Part shown: one piece after another, positions 52,994 through 63,971 of the stretch | Position numbering within the stretch: the first letter of the stretch is position 1 | Layout of the letters: each line of letters opens with the position of its first letter | Assembly: GCA_028824295.1 (NCBI GenBank) | Contig: JAPPED010000003.1 | Span: forward strand, 248,001 to 312,000 | DNA length: 64,000 nt | Origin: Rhodospirillales bacterium | GTDB lineage: Bacteria > Pseudomonadota > Alphaproteobacteria > TMED109 | Direction: 5' to 3' | Made by a program: the position numbers and the translations under genes | Notes under the pieces: generated by a model | Told to the model about the DNA's origin: nothing | Databases searched by the model: none | What the model saw: only the letters and a program-made list of their open reading frames with translations

Positions 52994-53407
52994 TTGAAAT
53001 GCGTATACTACAGTTCACATAACGTCAAGCGCAATCACGGTCCGGGTGATCACGGGAAGGCCCCTTCGTGAGACGCCCCAGGATTCCGTGAACTGTTTGA
53101 TGGAGCACACGGGGACGCCGAGACACGTCGTTAGTAGCGGCTCTCGAACTTATCGGCTGCGAGATCCCGACGCAGGGTGCCGCGCTGGCTATCGCGGGCC
53201 GGCCGCCGCGGGAGGGACAGGCGGACCTGTGCCATTACCTGGGTGCGGAGTTGGTTGGTGGCACCGTCGTCCAGCACGTGGGCGTCAGGCTCGAGCCGGT
53301 AGCTCAGCCGGCGGTTCTCTCGGTTCCGGGACTCGAATGAGACACTAGCTTTGCCGCCGGCGTCATGCCAACTTGTTGCCATAATGTTTTTTCAATATTT
53401 TCCGGTC

Positions 53408-53617
53408 ATGTCGAAAGATCACGACATCCCAATCTCCCGTGGCGACCTGACGTTCACAGTGCACATGGCACTGCGCGATCCACGACGACACGCCGGCGAA
53501 CGACGACAACGGCGTGCGATGGGGCAGCCGGACGATCTCGGGCAAGGGCGCCAGGGACGACCTTACCGCCGCCGAGCGCGATGCGTGGCGCAGGGCCGTG
53601 GAGGCAATCGACAATGA
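53408..53617 (+). pseudogene. Probable frameshifted small gene upstream of an XRE antitoxin
   Basis: An ATG at 53408 opens SKDHDIPISRGDLTFTV, protein-like, but the frame then becomes arginine/glutamine-rich. In the +1 frame the DNA from about 53475 reads IHDDTPANDDNGVRWGSRTI and then GARDDLTAAERDAWRRAVEA, which looks like a real C-terminus stopping at 53621. I infer one small gene split by a one-base indel near 53470. It may be the partner of the next gene. An AT-rich promoter-like patch (53380-53405) precedes it. Confidence 0.4.
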
Positions 53618-53928
53618 CTGAACGCAACATCGCTGCCAAGGTCCTCGACGCACTGTGCGAAGTACGCGAGCACCGCGCTGGCAAGCGCACCTTGAAGACC
53701 GTGCGGGTCGAGCCGCGGCCCCTCCTGAAGCTGACCCCAGAGGTCATCCGCGCCACTCGCGAGCGCCTGGACGTCTCCAGGGCGGTCTTTGCACACATGA
53801 TCCGCGTCCCCGTGCGCACGATCGAGCGCTGGGAGCAGGGTCGGTCAAGCCCTCCCGAATCGGCTGCGGCCCTCATCCTCATGGCGCAGAAGTACCCGGA
53901 CACGTTTGATCGGCTCGCCTCCCTGTAA
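53614..53928 (+). CDS. XRE-family antitoxin / HTH regulator
   Basis: A 104-aa protein with a C-terminal helix-turn-helix: LTPEVIRATRERLDVSRAVF then VPVRTIERWEQGRSSPPESA. This matches HTH antitoxins of the NadS/MqsA-like type, whose N-terminal part binds the toxin. The N-terminal 45 residues (KVLDALCEVREHRAGKRTLK) are helical. The ATG at 53614 overlaps the stop of the upstream small frame (ATGA). If that gene is the toxin, it is broken and this antitoxin is orphaned. Confidence 0.82.
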   Translation: MTERNIAAKVLDALCEVREHRAGKRTLKTVRVEPRPLLKLTPEVIRATRERLDVSRAVFAHMIRVPVRTIERWEQGRSSPPESAAALILMAQKYPDTFDRLASL

Positions 53929-54013
53929 CCCGCCCGGGCGGCCCGGTCCGATCAACCGACTGGGCGCGGTCCAATGGCAAACGGAGCCACTGCTCACGCG
54001 AAGGCGGCGGCGT

Positions 54014-54386
54014 CTAGAGCAGGCGGCAGCCGTAGTCGGTGAAGCGGCTGTCGGCGCTCATCAGCCTGACATTCCGCGCCATGCTCTGCACGACGAGCAT
54101 CCGGTCGAACGGATCGCGATGGCGAAAGGGAAGGTCCTTCAGGAGAACGGCATCTGCCGCGGAAAAAATCGAGCAGCTCGAAACCCAGCCGCCCGGCGCA
54201 GGCGATGGCGTCATGATCGAAGCGGAGCTTGCCGAGCGACGCCTTGATCATGCTCTCGGCGACTGAGACCGAACTCAGATAGACGATGTTGGCGCGGCTC
54301 TCGAGCTCGCTTCTCTGCCGTGGCGACAGGCGTTCGGGCGCGGCGACCGCCCAGATGAACACGTGCGTGTCGACCAGGATTCTCAA
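54014..54386 (-). pseudogene. VapC-type PIN-domain toxin disrupted by a one-base frameshift
   Basis: The N-terminal two thirds read RILVDTHVFIWAVAAPERLS to GFELLDF, with the first PIN Asp and the Glu in SVAESMIK. The rest, in another frame, reads SAADAVLLKDLPFRHRDPFD and ends SADSRFTDYGCRLL, with the remaining acidic residues. The switch falls on a run of six A (54163-54168, T6 on the coding strand); five would restore a 124-codon gene. The TTG start at 54386 overlaps the antitoxin TGA. Either a true inactivating mutation or a homopolymer sequencing error. Confidence 0.85.
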
Positions 54387-54619
54387 TCGCCGGGCCCGTA
54401 GAACATGCGTTCGATGTCCGCGTCCTCTTCGAACAGTGCATCGTCGGGCACGTCGACCTGCCCCTTCAGGATGCCCAATTTCCGCTTTCCTTCCGGGGTA
54501 TGCGGCACCAGGTCGGCGACCGGAAGATTGTTCTTGGCGATGACCACCTTCTCGCCGTGGTAGACGCGATCGATCAGGTTCGAGAGTTGCGCCTTCGCCT
54601 CCGAAATGTTGACGATCAT
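54383..54619 (-). CDS. Phd/YefM-type antitoxin (VapB-like partner)
   Basis: A 78-aa antitoxin. IVNISEAKAQLSNLIDRVYH and GEKVVIAKNNLPVADLVPH are the Phd/YefM DNA-binding fold; the acidic tail VPDDALFEEDADIERMFYG would cover the toxin active site. It overlaps the frameshifted PIN-domain gene by 4 bp. If the frameshift is real, it survives as an orphan antitoxin. The 404 bp upstream of it (54620-55023) hold no gene I recognise. Confidence 0.9.
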   Translation of the reverse strand: MIVNISEAKAQLSNLIDRVYHGEKVVIAKNNLPVADLVPHTPEGKRKLGILKGQVDVPDDALFEEDADIERMFYGPGD

Positions 54620-55023
54620 CCATCGGCCTCCCGTACCAGGTCTGTCAGACCATAGATGGCCAATGGGACCAATTCAGATCCGGTTTGGCAATACTTAGGG
54701 ACCACGCGATGATCGGATGGACCGAGAGGATGGCAGAGCGACAGGGCAAGCGACGCGCAAGATGCGGTGCTGACGCAGCCCCGCTGACATGATTGGCCGG
54801 CTCGGTGAAGGAACGGTCCGCCTTGCCAGGCGGGTTCTGCCATTCGACAGCAGTGCAGCGCGCTTACGCCCGGATTGCTTCGGCCAGCCGCATCGCCGTC
54901 CACGGAGATACACGCAGTCGTGCCGCGTCGACATTCCGCTTGGCGGTGAACTTGCCCTTCCACTAGCATCCGGTCCGGACGGGCCGGTGGCGGCCGGTCG
55001 CACCGTTCAATGGAGGCCGGACC

Positions 55024-57152: not shown

Positions 57153-58940
57153 TCAGGGTCGAGGGAGGGCTGATTGCCGGGTCTCGTCGTTGCCGTGACC
57201 GAGTTCATCGATCATCATTTGCCGCATGCGGAATTTCTGCGGTTTGCCCGTGACGGTCGTCGGCACTTCCGCTACCACGCGGACGAAACGGGGAATCTTG
57301 TAGTGCGCGATGTTTCCCTGACAGAAACTGCGGATGTCTTCTGCTGACAGTTCGGAACCCGTGGTCGGGATGACCCAGGCACAGACCTCTTCACCGTAGC
57401 CGGCATCCGGGATTCCGAACACGTGCGCTTCGCGAACATGCGGGTGGCGGAACAGGTACTCCTCGACTTCGCGCGGGTAGATGTTCTCGCCCCCCCGGAT
57501 GATCATGTCCTTGGCCCGGCCGGTGACGGTGCAGAACCCCTCGGCGTCGAGGCGGGCCAGATCGCCGGTGTGCATCCAGCCGTCACGAACGCTCGCCCGC
57601 GTTGCCGTCTCGTCATCCCAGTACCCCTTCATGGTGGAGTAGCCGCGGGTACACAATTCACCCTCCTCGCCGACCGGGAGCACCTTTCCGCCCGCATCAA
57701 CGATCCGGGCCTCCAGGTGCGGATGGATCCGTCCGACCGTGTTGCAGCGTTGCTCGACCGGGTCGTCCACCATGCTCTGAAACGACACCGGCGAGGTCTC
57801 GGTCATGCCGTAGCAGATGGTGAGTTCCGGCATGTGCATCTCGTGCAGGACCCGATCCATGACCACCTTCGGACAGGGGGCGCCGGCCATGATTCCGGTC
57901 CGCATCCGCGCGAGCTGAAGGTCGAGTGCGGGGAGCCGATCCAGCATGGCGACGAACATCGTCGGCACGCCGTACAGCGCGCTGCAACGCTCATCGGAAA
58001 CCGTGGAAAGGGTCGTCTCGGCATCAAAGCCTTCACCGGGGAACACCATCGCGGCGCCCTTGCTGATTGCGCCGAGGACCCCCATCACCATGCCGAAACA
58101 GTGGTAGAGGGGGACGGGGACGCAGAGACGGTCGTCCTCGGTGAGATGGATCCGGTCGGTGACGAAGCGCGCGTTGTTGACGATGTTCCGGTGGGTCAGC
58201 GTGGCGCCCTTCGGCGCTCCGGTCGTGCCGGACGTGAACTGGATGTTGATCGCATCATCGGGGGCCAGGGTCGAGTCGACAGCAGCGAGCCGCAGGACTT
58301 GCGCGGGTCCGGCAAGACCGGCCAGGCTCGCAAACGCGTAGATCCCGGGCCCCGGATCGTCGCTCAAAGCGATGACGCTCCGGAGATGCGGCAGCTGCTC
58401 CGAGCGCAGGCTGCCGGGCCGGCACCGGTCGAGTTCTGGTGCCAGCTGCCGCAGCATGCGCAGGTATTCCGACGAATTGAAGCTCTCGGCCAGCACCAGG
58501 GCGCGACACCCGGCACGGTTGAGCGCGAACTGGAGTTCCGCCGACCGATACGCCGGGTTGATCGTGACCAGAATCGCGCCAATGCGGGCGGAGGCGAGTT
58601 GCGTCAGCACCCATTCGTACCGGTTGGGCGACCAGATTCCGACCCGATCGCCTTTTGCTAGCCCGATGGCGAGGAGCCCTGCCGCGAGGGCATCGGTTTC
58701 ACGGCAGAGGTCGTGGTAGCTCCGCCGGATCGACTGGTGGGGACAGATCACGGCCTCCCGCGGCCCGAATCGCGAGGCTGCGCGCCCGAGCAGGTGCGGA
58801 ACCGTGATGTCCTCGAGTGGCGGCGCGGTGGCTCCGCGCACGTACGACTCGCCGTGGACGGGTACGGCGTCGGGTGCAGCGGATGGTGCGGTACCGAAGT
58901 TGGCGACTTGGCCTGCCAGGCTCTGGGTCAGAATGTTCAC
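57153..58940 (-). CDS. AMP-binding acyl-CoA synthetase
   Basis: A 595-aa ANL-superfamily enzyme that activates a carboxylic acid to its CoA thioester. [16 protein letters not shown] is the P-loop, CYGMTETSP motif A5, [14 protein letters not shown] motif A7 and [16 protein letters not shown]8; the late Lys is in [11 protein letters not shown]. The substrate is open (medium-chain or aryl acids are typical). The start is GTG at 58940, 10 bp after the stop of the ATPase-amidase fusion, so it is the last gene of the transporter operon and may activate the acid released by the amidase. Confidence 0.92.
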
Positions 58941-58950
58941 GGGCGCGTCG

Positions 58951-61359
58951 CTACATCGTCCGCCAGTCGCCGGACTGTTCGAAGGCGTGCGCGGCACGGT
59001 AGATCGTGGTTTCCTGGTGGGGGCCCCCGACCAGCATCATTCCGATCGGCAGTCCCTCGCTCATCCCGCAGGGGACGTTCATCGCCGGCAGGCCGCCGTT
59101 GAACGGCGCCGTGTTGCCGATGTTCTCGAACGCCCGCTGGATGTACACCGCAATCGAGCAATCCGGAGGCGGGATTTCCTGCGCCTTCATCGGCAGCGTC
59201 GGCAGCAGGAGAAGGTCGTGCACCTCGAGTGCGCGCGCGTAGGCCGCGTTGGCCTTGCGCATCAGGTTCTGCGCCTTGCCGTAGAAGCGGCCGCGGTATT
59301 GCTGGCGGAAGTGCTCGCCGAGAAACATGCAGACCTTCAGGGAGTGGCTGAGTTCGTCCGCTCGCGTCCGCCACTGGGCCATGTGATCGATCATCGACGG
59401 CAGGAACAGACCGCGGCAGTTCGTCCCGGCCGCGTTGCCGTGCATCATCTGGTCCTGAAGGCCTTCGACGGCGATCGCCGTCCAGCAGTCGAGAGCCAAG
59501 AAATGCTCCGGGACCGAGATGTCCTCGACGCTCGCGCCCAGTTCGCGGAAGCGGTCGGCCGCTTCGCGGACTTTGCGGTCCACGTCCGGCTCGCTCTCCG
59601 GCCGGCCAAAACCCTCCTTGAGTACGCCGACCCGAAGGCTTCGGGCACCCTGGCCGAGCGCTTCGGTGTAGCGGGCGGTCTTCGGGTCGCGCTGCCGGGA
59701 ATCGAGCCCGTCGTCGCCGGCCAGCACCTCCAGCAGGAGTGCATTGTCGGCCACCGTACCGGTCACCGGCCCCACGTGGTCGATCGTGCGCTCGATCGGC
59801 ATGATCCCGCTGTACGGTACTAGGCCATGCGTCGCCTTCATGCCGTACACACCGCAGTTTGCCGAAGGGATCCGGATGGAGCCGCCCTGGTCGCCGGCAA
59901 TTGCCATGTCGACTTCCCCGGCGGCGACGAGCGCTGCCGAGCCGCTTGACGAACCGCCCGCCATGTAGCCGCGTTTCCACGGGTTCTGGACCGGCCCCTT
60001 GGCGCCGGTGTGCGAGCCCGCCGAGAGGCAGAAATTCTCGCAGTGGGCCTTCCCCACGATCGTGGCGCCAGCGTCCAGCATGCGGGTGACGATGGTTGCG
60101 TCTACTTCCGGCGTATAGCCTTCCATGATCGCCGAGCCGTTCATCATCGGCACGCCGGCGAGGCACACGGTGTCCTTCAGGACGATCCGCTTGCCGCGGA
60201 GCGGACCATCCGGGGCGCCGCGCACGTCCGTTTTGACGTACCACGCGTTTAATTGATTGTCAGACGGTTCCGGGAAGTGCCCGGGCGCCCTCGGATAGCG
60301 CACTGGCGGCAGGTAGTCGGGCGCCGCGTCCAGCCGGTCGTACGCCTGGACATAGGGCTCCATGACCTCCCGGTACTGTTCGAGTTCGTGGTCGGTGAGC
60401 CCCATGCCGAACTGGCCGGCCATGGTGCGCATCTGGGAGAGCGAAGGTCGATTGACGGTCATGGTGTTCGCTGTTCCGGGGAATCCGGCGGCATCACCGG
60501 CTGGCAGGGGCGCCCCCCGTTCCTCCGGGATACGTTCGTGGATCGGCGGAGCGGCCCGCTCGGCGGAAGACCCGTTTCCCGGCGGGCCGGGGCGAGGTGA
60601 CGGGGAGGAAGAGGCGGCGGATCGCGCTGGGCCAAGACCGAGAAGCGTCTCGATTTCGGCGGGGTTCGCGAGGTCGGTGCGCCCAAGCTCGCCCGTGACC
60701 CGGCCCCGTTCCAGGATGAGGACGCGATCGGACAGGGCCGCGACGAAATCGAAATTCTGTTCCACAAGCAGGACAGAAAGCGCTGAACGCTCCTGCAGGC
60801 CGCGCAGGGTTTCGGCGATCTCGTCGATGATCGAGGGCTGGATGCCTTCGGTGGGTTCGTCGAGCATCAGGAAATCAGGCTCGCCCATCAGGCACCGCGC
60901 AAGCGTCAGGAGCTGCTGCTCCCCGCCGGACAGCGCGCCGCCCTTGCGGTCGAGCAGGCCGGCAAGGCGGGGGAAGGCGGCGAGCACCGTGTCCAGCACG
61001 TCGTCTTCGTGCTCGCCGGTGAGGCCCTGCCAACCGAAGCGCAAATTGTCCCGGACTGTGAGTTGCGGAAAGATTCCCCGCTCCTGGGGAACGAAGCCTA
61101 TGCCCAGGCGGGCGCGCTCAAACGGCGGCAGCGCGGTGATCGCGTTGCCGCGGTACCGGATGACACCGGACGTGGCGGGCAGCAAGCCCATGAGCAGCCG
61201 CAGCAGGGTGGACTTCCCCATGCCGTTGTGGCCGAGGATTCCCACCACCTCGTCATCGCGCACCTGGAGGTCAACCCCGTGCAGGATGGGCACCTTCCCA
61301 TAGCCGCCCGTGAGTCCCTCGACTTCCAGGGCCGGCGCCGCCTCTGGCACCTCGGTCAC
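58951..61359 (-). CDS. LivF-type ABC ATPase fused in frame to an amidase
   Basis: An 802-aa protein. Residues 1-245 are a full ABC ATPase: GHNGMGKSTLL (Walker A), LSGGEQQLLTLA (signature), FLMLDEPTEGIQP (Walker B). A 55-residue proline/serine/alanine-rich linker follows. Residues 300-802 are a complete amidase-signature enzyme with the Lys of VLKDTVCLAG, the cis-Ser in GGSSSGSAAL and the nucleophile in AGDQGGSIRIPSANCG. These are normally separate proteins. An internal ATG at 60462 could start the amidase alone, but no strong ribosome binding site precedes it. The 4-bp overlap with livG and the downstream acyl-CoA synthetase suggest amide uptake and hydrolysis. Confidence 0.88.
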   Translation of the reverse strand: MTEVPEAAPALEVEGLTGGYGKVPILHGVDLQVRDDEVVGILGHNGMGKSTLLRLLMGLLPATSGVIRYRGNAITALPPFERARLGIGFVPQERGIFPQLTVRDNLRFGWQGLTGEHEDDVLDTVLAAFPRLAGLLDRKGGALSGGEQQLLTLARCLMGEPDFLMLDEPTEGIQPSIIDEIAETLRGLQERSALSVLLVEQNFDFVAALSDRVLILERGRVTGELGRTDLANPAEIETLLGLGPARSAASSSPSPRPGPPGNGSSAERAAPPIHERIPEERGAPLPAGDAAGFPGTANTMTVNRPSLSQMRTMAGQFGMGLTDHELEQYREVMEPYVQAYDRLDAAPDYLPPVRYPRAPGHFPEPSDNQLNAWYVKTDVRGAPDGPLRGKRIVLKDTVCLAGVPMMNGSAIMEGYTPEVDATIVTRMLDAGATIVGKAHCENFCLSAGSHTGAKGPVQNPWKRGYMAGGSSSGSAALVAAGEVDMAIAGDQGGSIRIPSANCGVYGMKATHGLVPYSGIMPIERTIDHVGPVTGTVADNALLLEVLAGDDGLDSRQRDPKTARYTEALGQGARSLRVGVLKEGFGRPESEPDVDRKVREAADRFRELGASVEDISVPEHFLALDCWTAIAVEGLQDQMMHGNAAGTNCRGLFLPSMIDHMAQWRTRADELSHSLKVCMFLGEHFRQQYRGRFYGKAQNLMRKANAAYARALEVHDLLLLPTLPMKAQEIPPPDCSIAVYIQRAFENIGNTAPFNGGLPAMNVPCGMSEGLPIGMMLVGGPHQETTIYRAAHAFEQSGDWRTM

Positions 61360-62072
61360 GCGGCTTGTCCCAGATAGACGCTGCGCACGGCCGGGTCCGC
61401 CAACACGGCGTCCACGTGACCCTCGAGCAGCACCGCGCCCCGGTGAAAGACCGTGACGGTTCTGGCAATCGAGCGGATGAACTGCATGTCGTGTTCGACC
61501 ACAACCACGGCCGCTGTCCGCGAGAATTCTTCCACGATTTCGGTCAGGCGTTCGACGTCACCGCCGGTCATCCCGGCCGCCGGCTCGTCGAGCAACACAA
61601 GCCAGGGATCCCCTGCCATGACCATGCCGAGCTCGACATGCTGGCGCTCGCCGTGGGCGAGCCTGCCGGGCGAGCTCCGCGCAACGGGCTCCAGCGCCAG
61701 CCGGGCGATGGTTTCGTCGGCTTTCCGGGTGGCGGCTTGCGGCGGCAGGAACCGGCGGGCGGCGAGCCAGATGTTCTCGAAGACGCTCAGCCCGTCCATG
61801 ACGCTCGGCACCTGGGTCTTGGTGCCGACGCCGAGACTTGCCACGTGATGGGACGGCCAGCGCGTGGTTTCCTGGCCGCGCATGAAGATTTGCCCCTCCG
61901 TCGGCTGCAGCAGCCCCGTGACGCATTTGAAGAACGTCGACTTTCCGGCGCCGTTCGGGCCGATGAGGCAGCGGAGCTCGCGGGCATCCAGCCTGAAGTC
62001 GACGTGGGCGACTGCCTGCACCCCACCAAATTGCATGATGAGGCCCTGGGTCTCCAGGACCGTTTCAGGCAT
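61356..62072 (-). CDS. LivG-type ABC transporter ATPase
   Basis: A 238-aa ATPase of the branched-chain amino acid/urea/amide transporter group. GPNGAGKSTFFKCVTGLL is Walker A, LAHGERQHVELGMVMAG the signature region (LAHGE for LSGGQ), and LVLLDEPAAGM Walker B. It pairs with the LivF half of the next gene. It overlaps LivM by 8 bp and the fusion gene by 4 bp. The protein is cytosolic, attached to the two permeases. Confidence 0.94.
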   Translation of the reverse strand: MPETVLETQGLIMQFGGVQAVAHVDFRLDARELRCLIGPNGAGKSTFFKCVTGLLQPTEGQIFMRGQETTRWPSHHVASLGVGTKTQVPSVMDGLSVFENIWLAARRFLPPQAATRKADETIARLALEPVARSSPGRLAHGERQHVELGMVMAGDPWLVLLDEPAAGMTGGDVERLTEIVEEFSRTAAVVVVEHDMQFIRSIARTVTVFHRGAVLLEGHVDAVLADPAVRSVYLGQAA

Positions 62073-63108
62073 CGCCTGACGCCAGGGAGGACCGCGGCCC
62101 GCGCCGTCGCCGGTACCGGCTCCGGGGACGCCTGCGCGTGACTAGGCGCCAAGCGTTCGCCAAAACGGGAGCGATCCCTCCCGGAAGAAAGAGCACGAAG
62201 AGGACCAGGATGGCGCCGGACACGACGGAATTGTGTAAGAGGTCCTGCTGTCCCAGGAGGAACTTTAGATAGGAGAGACCGGCCGCGCCCAGCACCGGCC
62301 CGATGCGGGTGCCCAGGCCGCCGACGATGCACCAGATGATGATGTCCGCCGACTGGCTGAGGGAAAACAGGCGCGGGGTGACGATTTCCGCCCAGTTCGC
62401 AAACAGTGCGCCGGCCAGGCCGGCGATGGCGGCGCCTGCGGCGAACATGACAGTCTTGCGGGCCGGCACGTCGTAGCCCATCAGGGCAGCCCGCGTCTCG
62501 TTTTCGCGAATGCCGACGGCAATGCGCCCGAACGACGACCGGAGCACCGCGCTCACGAGCAGGTACGCCAGCAGCAGGCAGACCGCGCTGAAGTAGTAGA
62601 AGGACTCGCCCCAGACGTAGGCACTCGGGTCTCCGGGGACGTTCAGGGTCTGGAACCCCGGAATACCGTTGAACCCGCCGAGCCGCGCATTCCCGATGAC
62701 GTACTCCGAACCGGCGGTGGCGTTCATGAACCGGTGGAGGATCAGCGTGACGACGAGGGTGATGACGCCGAGGTAGACGTCGGTCAGCCGGCCGTAGAAC
62801 AGCATGGCCCCGAGCACCGCGGCGAAGCCCGCCGGAACCGCCACCGCGAGGAGCATCGGCACCGTGCTCTCGCCGAAGTTGATCGCGGCAATGGCGTAGG
62901 TGTAGGCGCCAAGACCGAAGAAGGCGGCCTGGCCGAAACAGAGGATGCCCCCGAACCCCCAGACCAGTCCCAGGCTGAGACCGAGCATCCCGTAGATGAT
63001 GAGAACGGTCAGCGTGTAGGTGCTGACCAACATGGGCAGGACACCGACGGCGCAGGCGGCCACCACCAGCGTGCCGGTGAGTTCGCGGCCCCACCCGGCG
63101 TCCCTCAC
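62065..63108 (-). CDS. LivM-type ABC transporter permease
   Basis: A 347-aa membrane permease. SLGLVWGFGGILCFGQAAFF and GAYTYAIAAINFG match the LivM/UrtC core, and SFGRIAVGIRENETRAALMG is the cytoplasmic coupling loop that contacts the ATPase (EAA-like). The C-terminal 30 residues are very basic (RRRPRSRYRRRRG), unlike most relatives. It overlaps LivH by 4 bp. Confidence 0.94.
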   Translation of the reverse strand: MRDAGWGRELTGTLVVAACAVGVLPMLVSTYTLTVLIIYGMLGLSLGLVWGFGGILCFGQAAFFGLGAYTYAIAAINFGESTVPMLLAVAVPAGFAAVLGAMLFYGRLTDVYLGVITLVVTLILHRFMNATAGSEYVIGNARLGGFNGIPGFQTLNVPGDPSAYVWGESFYYFSAVCLLLAYLLVSAVLRSSFGRIAVGIRENETRAALMGYDVPARKTVMFAAGAAIAGLAGALFANWAEIVTPRLFSLSQSADIIIWCIVGGLGTRIGPVLGAAGLSYLKFLLGQQDLLHNSVVSGAILVLFVLFLPGGIAPVLANAWRLVTRRRPRSRYRRRRGPRSSLASGDA

Positions 63109-63971
63109 AGCGATTCCCTGAACAGCCGGTCGGTGATGCCCCGGGGCAGGAGCCGGAGGAGGATGACGGCCGCCACCAGGAGCGCCACTTCGCCGACGAC
63201 CGGCGAAACCGCGAAGCTGAAGATCTGGTTGATCAGCCCGAAGACGCCGGCGCTGCTGGCCAGACCCGCGATCAGCGCGGGCCCGCCAGCGATGACCGTA
63301 ATGAACGCCTTCGCGATGTAGGCGCCGCCGGACGTGGGGACCAGCCCGACGAGCGGGGCGAGGACGGCACCGGCCAGCCCTGACAGCGCGGACCCGCAGG
63401 CGAACGTCAGCATGTAGATGCGGTCGGGGTTATAGCCGAGTGACGCAGCCATGTCCGAATGCTGCATCGTCCCGCGGGCGATGAGACCCGACCGGGTCGA
63501 TCTGAGCACGGCCAGCATGAGGAGAAGGAGGACCGCGGCCACCAGGACGATGAAGAAGTTGTACCCGTTGACTTGATAGTCCCCGAGCGCGAAGCCGGGA
63601 ATGGGGGTCGATATGCCGGTCGTCGTGTTGCCGAACAGCATCGTCACGATACCGATGAACAGCAGGCTCAGCCCCCAGGTGGCGAGCATCGTGTCGATGA
63701 GGCGTCCGTAGAGGTGCCGGATCACCAGGCGCTCGACGGCGAGGCCCAGCACGCCGACGACCGCCGGCGCCAGGACGAGCATGGCAAGAAAGACGTTCAC
63801 GCCGAGATCGACGGCGGTAATCGTGGCATATCCCCCGAGCATCATGAACTCGCCGTGCGCGAGGTTGATGACCCGCATCATGCCGAAGATCACGGCCAGG
63901 CCGGCGCTGATCAGGACCAGCGCGCCGATCGCGTACAGCACTTCGACAACGATGACCAGAACGAGATCCAT
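63105..63971 (-). CDS. LivH-type ABC transporter permease
   Basis: A 288-aa membrane permease of the LivH/UrtB type. FGMMRVINLAHGEFMMLGGY is the family hallmark and STRSGLIARGTMQHSDMAAS the coupling loop. It is the first gene of the operon inside the window; the substrate-binding protein, usually upstream, would lie beyond 64000. Hydrophobic helices run through the whole length. The urea/short amide branch of this family is a reasonable guess because of the amidase downstream. Confidence 0.94.
   Translation of the reverse strand: MDLVLVIVVEVLYAIGALVLISAGLAVIFGMMRVINLAHGEFMMLGGYATITAVDLGVNVFLAMLVLAPAVVGVLGLAVERLVIRHLYGRLIDTMLATWGLSLLFIGIVTMLFGNTTTGISTPIPGFALGDYQVNGYNFFIVLVAAVLLLLMLAVLRSTRSGLIARGTMQHSDMAASLGYNPDRIYMLTFACGSALSGLAGAVLAPLVGLVPTSGGAYIAKAFITVIAGGPALIAGLASSAGVFGLINQIFSFAVSPVVGEVALLVAAVILLRLLPRGITDRLFRESL

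Follow-up and report, generated by a model that had tools for sequence, protein, structure and literature searches.

The present study shows that an ABC-importer ATPase and an amidase are encoded as one protein in the window, a stretch of 64,000 nucleotides from a Rhodospirillales bacterium (GCA_028824295.1, contig JAPPED010000003.1, positions 248,001 to 312,000), and comparison across genomes confirms that this fusion is real. The reading which we favour, and hold to be reasonably probable, is that the importer ATPase bears the amidase on a flexible tether, within a gene cluster for amide use, and that a conserved internal start probably adds a free amidase. From the genes it contains, we infer that the cluster, nine genes in all, serves to import a primary amide or a urea-like compound and to use it. 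The features are collected in Table 1.

Table 1. Features of the fused gene and its neighbours (positions in the window unless stated)
Feature	Position	Strand	Basis
Acyl-CoA synthetase (AMP-binding)	57153..58940	minus	ORF, domain searches, start comparison
Fused gene: UrtE/LivF-type ABC ATPase, linker and amidase, 802 aa, GTG start	58951..61359	minus	ORF and domain searches
Amidase domain (aa 300-802), PRK07235/RhAmidase family, N-terminal segment included, complete	58954..60462	minus	Profile search, structure alignment, residue conservation
ATG (Met300), ancestral amidase start codon, possible internal translation start	60460..60462	minus	72-ORF comparison
Linker rich in Pro/Ala/Ser (about aa 241-299; 59 aa), predicted disordered, unconserved in sequence, always in frame	60463..60639	minus	ORF comparison, structure model
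GGAA, only Shine-Dalgarno-like bases 5' of the internal ATG in the window genome; weak	60474..60477	minus	-3.5 kcal/mol
ABC ATPase domain (aa 10-240), LivF/UrtE type, Gln replacing the H-loop His	60640..61332	minus	Domain search, structure alignment, motif conservation
UrtD/LivG-type ABC ATPase, partner of the fused ATPase	61356..62072	minus	ORF, domain searches, locus comparison
UrtC/LivM-type permease	62065..63108	minus	ORF, domain searches, locus comparison
UrtB/LivH-type permease	63105..63971	minus	ORF, domain searches
Substrate-binding protein, flotillin, AmiC-like protein, divergent MarR	L032 12051-16768 (upstream, outside the window)		

The sequence-only reading had described one frame spanning both halves, with the catalytic motifs of each present, and both points were borne out. 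The ORF runs from 61359 to 58951 on the minus strand, which that reading had left unstated, as a single 802-aa frame without an internal stop (stop codon at 58951-58953), and its GTG start shares bases with the stop of the preceding UrtD-like gene as GTGA. Pfam searches gave matches to ABC_tran at aa 26-170 (1.1e-31) and to Amidase at aa 378-786 (1.6e-85). The ATPase in the window contains Walker A (GHNGMGKS), the Q-loop Gln, the signature LSGGEQQ and Walker B (LMLDEP), and alignment of 24 fused proteins revealed that these motifs are invariant or nearly so. The switch (H-loop) residue is Gln201 in 'LLVEQN' and not His; 'LLVEQN' is also read in the LivF-like 1ji0, the closest solved structure to this half. 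By its Walker A, Q-loop, LSGGQ-type signature, Walker B and VEQN switch, the ATPase half is assigned from sequence to the LivF/UrtE type. The amidase half scores 751.7 bits against a cutoff of 545 for NF005565, covering positions 1-505 of the 506 in the profile, and is likewise assigned to the PRK07235/RhAmidase family, with amide hydrolysis as the predicted activity. Lys395, Ser470 and Ser494 are invariant in the 24 fused proteins and align to 3a1k; these we take to be the Lys-Ser-Ser catalytic triad of amidase-signature enzymes. The closest solved structures to the amidase half are those of the Rhodococcus amidase (3a1k/3a1i). Residue 305 of the fusion aligns with residue 6 of 3a1k, so that the N-terminus of the amidase is entire, and thus two full genes have been joined end to end.

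The fusion exists in many other genomes. Counting the window copy, 72 distinct fused ORFs were found, nearly all from other alphaproteobacteria (Ruegeria, Phaeobacter, Sulfitobacter, Hoeflea, Roseibium and others). Both halves lie in one open frame in 61 of the 80 named loci retrieved with the protein; the amidase is unfused in the other 19, in most of which the ATPase is a separate gene adjoining it, and in some unfused relatives the two genes share a reading frame and a single stop separates them. The window gene is the sole fused copy in its own genome, a same-genus genome carries the fusion at 92% identity, and complete roseobacter plasmids carry it annotated as a single CDS named 'amidase'. 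It is present in 10 of 385 sampled genomes of the class, the window genome counted; in a search reaching outside the class, 299 genomes drawn from the phylum showed only unfused amidases apart from the window gene, with no further fusion. A check for a missed stop had been proposed, and in this comparison relatives also lack a stop between the domains; the fusion held. In the amidase tree the fused proteins group together with one change of state (support 73). The ATPase tree needs two changes, one of which is a long-branch paralog, weakly placed. These trees fit a single fusion event, after which the gene was inherited and transferred. No re-split gene was seen in the fused clade apart from fragments apparently cut by contig ends. 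Two g73 genomes (G211 and G410) had been candidates for re-splitting, having loci without the ATPase half, and these look like such fragments: in G211 the fragment opens 47 bases ahead of where the amidase starts, which points to a contig end and not to a stop.

The second line of evidence concerns the start codon of the ancestral amidase, which is kept in 72 of 72 fused ORFs (71 ATG and 1 GTG). Most fused genes have a Shine-Dalgarno-like GGTGA just before it, which would pair with the end of 16S rRNA at normal spacing, and early-branching fused genes without GGTGA have other purine-rich sites at the same place, for example AGGAGG and GGGAGG. Around the internal start, bases vary less than the encoded residues. 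The third base of codon -4 is G in 63 of the 72 genes, which encode 11 different amino acids there, and at codon -3 Val is written GTG in 51 of 54, while the next best of 29 conserved Val columns reaches 75%. Four of the six most synonymously constrained of 741 columns fall at codons -4 to +7 in a diverse 25-gene subset; this test leaves out the columns upstream of the real ATPase start (UrtD overlap), which were top-ranked in an earlier column test. The mean anti-Shine-Dalgarno energy at the internal start is -7.0 kcal/mol, as against -4.1 at 1919 control in-frame ATGs, and it is -9.1 kcal/mol at 57 unfused amidase starts. A synonymous-shuffle test of single genes was significant alone in only 2 of 72, and related sequences are not independent. 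This per-gene test is too weak to decide, so column-wise comparisons were used, and it is there that the signal lies. Across the fused family there are thus a conserved codon and, from the alignments, a ribosome site kept at the nucleotide level, as in a functional internal start, and in most relatives the fused genes probably yield two products, the fusion and a free amidase.

For the window genome itself a second product is uncertain. Its GGAA site is no better than synonymous shuffles, and the GGTGA of relatives lies nearer to the ATG; a close relative (L070) has CGTGA there. The lack of a strong Shine-Dalgarno site in the window copy makes the claim of a free amidase weaker for this genome. 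Met300 and its neighbours may also be kept partly for protein reasons. A role of GGTGA as a frameshift-and-stop signal is disfavoured, as relatives without TGA have AGGAGG, GGGAGG or AAGGA at that place. The sequence-only reading had set the fusion against an amidase starting at 60462. The fusion stood, but the opposition need not hold, since both may be true and the codon at 60462 is conserved. In-frame internal starts occur generally in bacterial genes; according to a report on SpaO (PMC13059759), such a start gives two isoforms from one frame, the shorter being the C-terminal part. The case described here would differ in that the predicted short form is a complete enzyme and the long form is attached to a transporter.

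The gene order of the fused loci is MarR (divergent), AmiC-like binding protein, flotillin, substrate-binding protein, UrtB, UrtC, UrtD, fusion and CoA ligase. Among the 52 fused loci with enough flank, UrtB, UrtC, UrtD, the binding protein and flotillin were present in all, and the AmiC-like protein and MarR in 50. CoA ligase comes next in 58 of the 60 fused loci as compared to 0 of 18 unfused loci, and flotillin is found in 0 of 14 unfused loci; thus, both go with the fused form. In the window, 58940 is a more likely start for the acyl-CoA synthetase than 58997, and a gap of 10 nt then separates it from the stop of the fusion. The enzyme scores above the Pfam cutoffs for AMP-binding and AMP-binding_C and below that of its nearest NCBIfam subfamily, PRK12583 (784 bits against 832). 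In the window genome the flotillin-family protein lies at 13336-14931 of L032, outside the window and inside the importer operon. Another copy of the operon, with 94% nucleotide identity to the window genome over 7260 bases, is on L070, a contig of 11797 bases whose title names a Chloroflexi MAG (SB0662) but which is probably alphaproteobacterial and misbinned. The nucleotide identity of L070 and L034 to the window genome ends about 80 bases past the CoA-ligase stop; the operon is therefore a block whose downstream neighbours differ.

Several known systems resemble parts of this arrangement. UrtABCDE and LivFGHM-type (HAAT) importers share with this cluster both their genes and the order of these (binding protein, two permeases, UrtD, UrtE), and the Urt families are the best NCBIfam matches of the transporter genes, with all components below the Urt equivalog cutoffs. 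Unlike those importers, here the UrtE subunit bears an amidase and the cluster adds flotillin and CoA ligase. RhAmidase of Rhodococcus sp. N-771 (PDB 3a1i/3a1k) is homologous over its full length from aa 305 of the fusion (E 1e-136), with the Lys-Ser-Ser residues aligned; it is a separate protein, whereas here the amidase is the C-terminal half of an ABC ATPase fusion. The operon on Tistrella mobilis pTM2 has, like the fused loci, MarR, an AmiC-like protein, a binding protein, permeases and two ATPases and then an amidase, and a Reyranella locus has the same order where matched. In both of these unfused operons, in contrast, the amidase is its own gene, and neither flotillin nor CoA ligase adjoins. 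Nitrile hydratase genes are near the pTM2 operon: on pTM2 (L140) and on a Klebsiella pneumoniae plasmid (L141), relatives of the amidase adjoin nitrile hydratase and urt-like transporter genes, and on the Klebsiella plasmid IS elements are close to this region. One of the solved structures related to the binding protein is that of AmiC of Pseudomonas aeruginosa (1pea). In the ami operon of P. aeruginosa and in the FmdDEF amide uptake system of Methylophilus, an AmiC-type amide-binding protein and amide use are combined in one operon. Neither is known to contain an ATPase-amidase fusion.

In the reading that we favour, the binding protein and permeases would carry the amide in, and UrtD together with the UrtE-amidase would form the ATPase pair under the two permeases, which would drive transport from the cytoplasmic side. 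One amidase would be tethered to each importer on its inner side, where it would cleave the amide into ammonia and an acid close to the exit, and the product of the next gene, the CoA ligase, would convert the released acid to a CoA ester. An import-hydrolyse-activate chain had been put forward earlier, and it stands in so far as a shared pathway is backed by the operon context and by the constant position of the CoA ligase next to the fusion. The linker had been called disordered-looking, and the structure model agrees (pLDDT below 50 across aa 243-298), with the limit that the amidase half of the same model, made from 24 sequences, is also poor. In the 72 fused ORFs the linkers are 37-73 aa long with 29 different lengths, all in frame and free of stops; Ala, Pro, Thr and Ser abound in them, and they have little common sequence except in the first and last few residues. 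A disordered tether of this length raises local concentration and by itself gives no channelling. Its benefit, going by the model, would be local concentration and fixed proportions, as it would allow movement and build no channel. RhAmidase-type enzymes are dimers, formed via the N-terminal helical domain, and because of this a free amidase from the internal start could complete a dimer with the tethered copy on the transporter. We put forward only tentatively the fuller scheme, in which one gene gives an anchored and a free amidase that pair, and the importer bears a full dimer, possibly organised by flotillin, from which product is passed to the CoA ligase.

It could be argued that the joining reflects neutral compaction of the operon, in which the stop between translationally coupled neighbours was lost once, leaving the amidase as a passenger without benefit and the internal start as a relic. 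In unfused relatives the genes adjoin directly, some of them already sharing a frame broken by a single stop, and the sequence of the linker is unconserved, as this explanation would have it. On the other hand, the frame stays open across many genera and linker lengths, re-splitting is seen in the fused clade only as apparent contig-end fragments, and Shine-Dalgarno-like bases are kept at the nucleotide level, which is unexpected of a relic. Neutral compaction is therefore somewhat unlikely, and we retain the tethered importer-amidase as the preferred account.

The substrate may also be questioned. UrtE (253 of 285.8 bits), UrtD (236 of 304), UrtC (166 of 296), UrtB (192 of 250) and UrtA (251 of 493) all score below the NCBIfam cutoffs for Urt proteins, and with archaeal-type Urt models too the transporter components score below the cutoffs, which argues against naming it a urea transporter. 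Nitrile hydratase genes adjoin relatives of the amidase at unfused loci and the window genome has one nitrile hydratase elsewhere, which is consistent with amide substrates. Rather unlikely, in our estimate, is an alternative in which importer and amidase handle some compound that is not a simple amide, and the CoA ligase uses an unrelated acid. No transporter component reaches an equivalog cutoff, AMP-binding enzymes are hard to assign by sequence and the ligase scores below the PRK12583 cutoff, all of which would allow it, but the adjacency of the CoA ligase to fused and not to unfused amidases ties this enzyme to the system.

Distinctly less probable is that the fusion is made and then cut in the linker by a cell protease, the working forms being a separate ATPase and a separate amidase: the long, variable and predictedly disordered linker would suit cleavage, but no conserved cleavage motif was apparent in the linkers of the 72 fused ORFs, and the conserved internal start signals would be redundant. 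That an error of sequencing or assembly created the open frame, or that the amidase starts only at 60462, has practically no likelihood left, for although an ATG is present there and conserved, the same open frame recurs in independent assemblies including the complete plasmids with their one-CDS annotation, ribosomes on the ATPase must in the absence of a stop continue into the amidase, and the 72 distinct fused ORFs rule out a missed stop or misassembly.

Both halves and the operon type are already known; what appears to be new is their joining, its conservation and the probable dual product. No description of an ATPase-amidase fusion was found in the open-access literature, an absence which is weak evidence, and our impression is that importer ATPases fused to a cargo-consuming enzyme are rare. 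The fusion is widespread in marine roseobacters, where annotation as 'amidase' alone can hide a transporter subunit, and it suggests an uncharacterised way in which marine bacteria handle organic nitrogen (amides). Being defined and culturable, the system lends itself to asking whether a nutrient is used faster when the enzyme is tethered to its importer, and it also serves as a test case of a fused gene whose output may stay dual through an internal start. Elsewhere in the window, an ORF at 53994-54623 on the minus strand includes a stretch resembling a PIN domain (ILVDTHVFIWAVAAP), and close to it a helix-turn-helix ORF at 53365-53928 on the plus strand has a weak match to the MqsA antitoxin; the two are possible remnants of a toxin-antitoxin pair.
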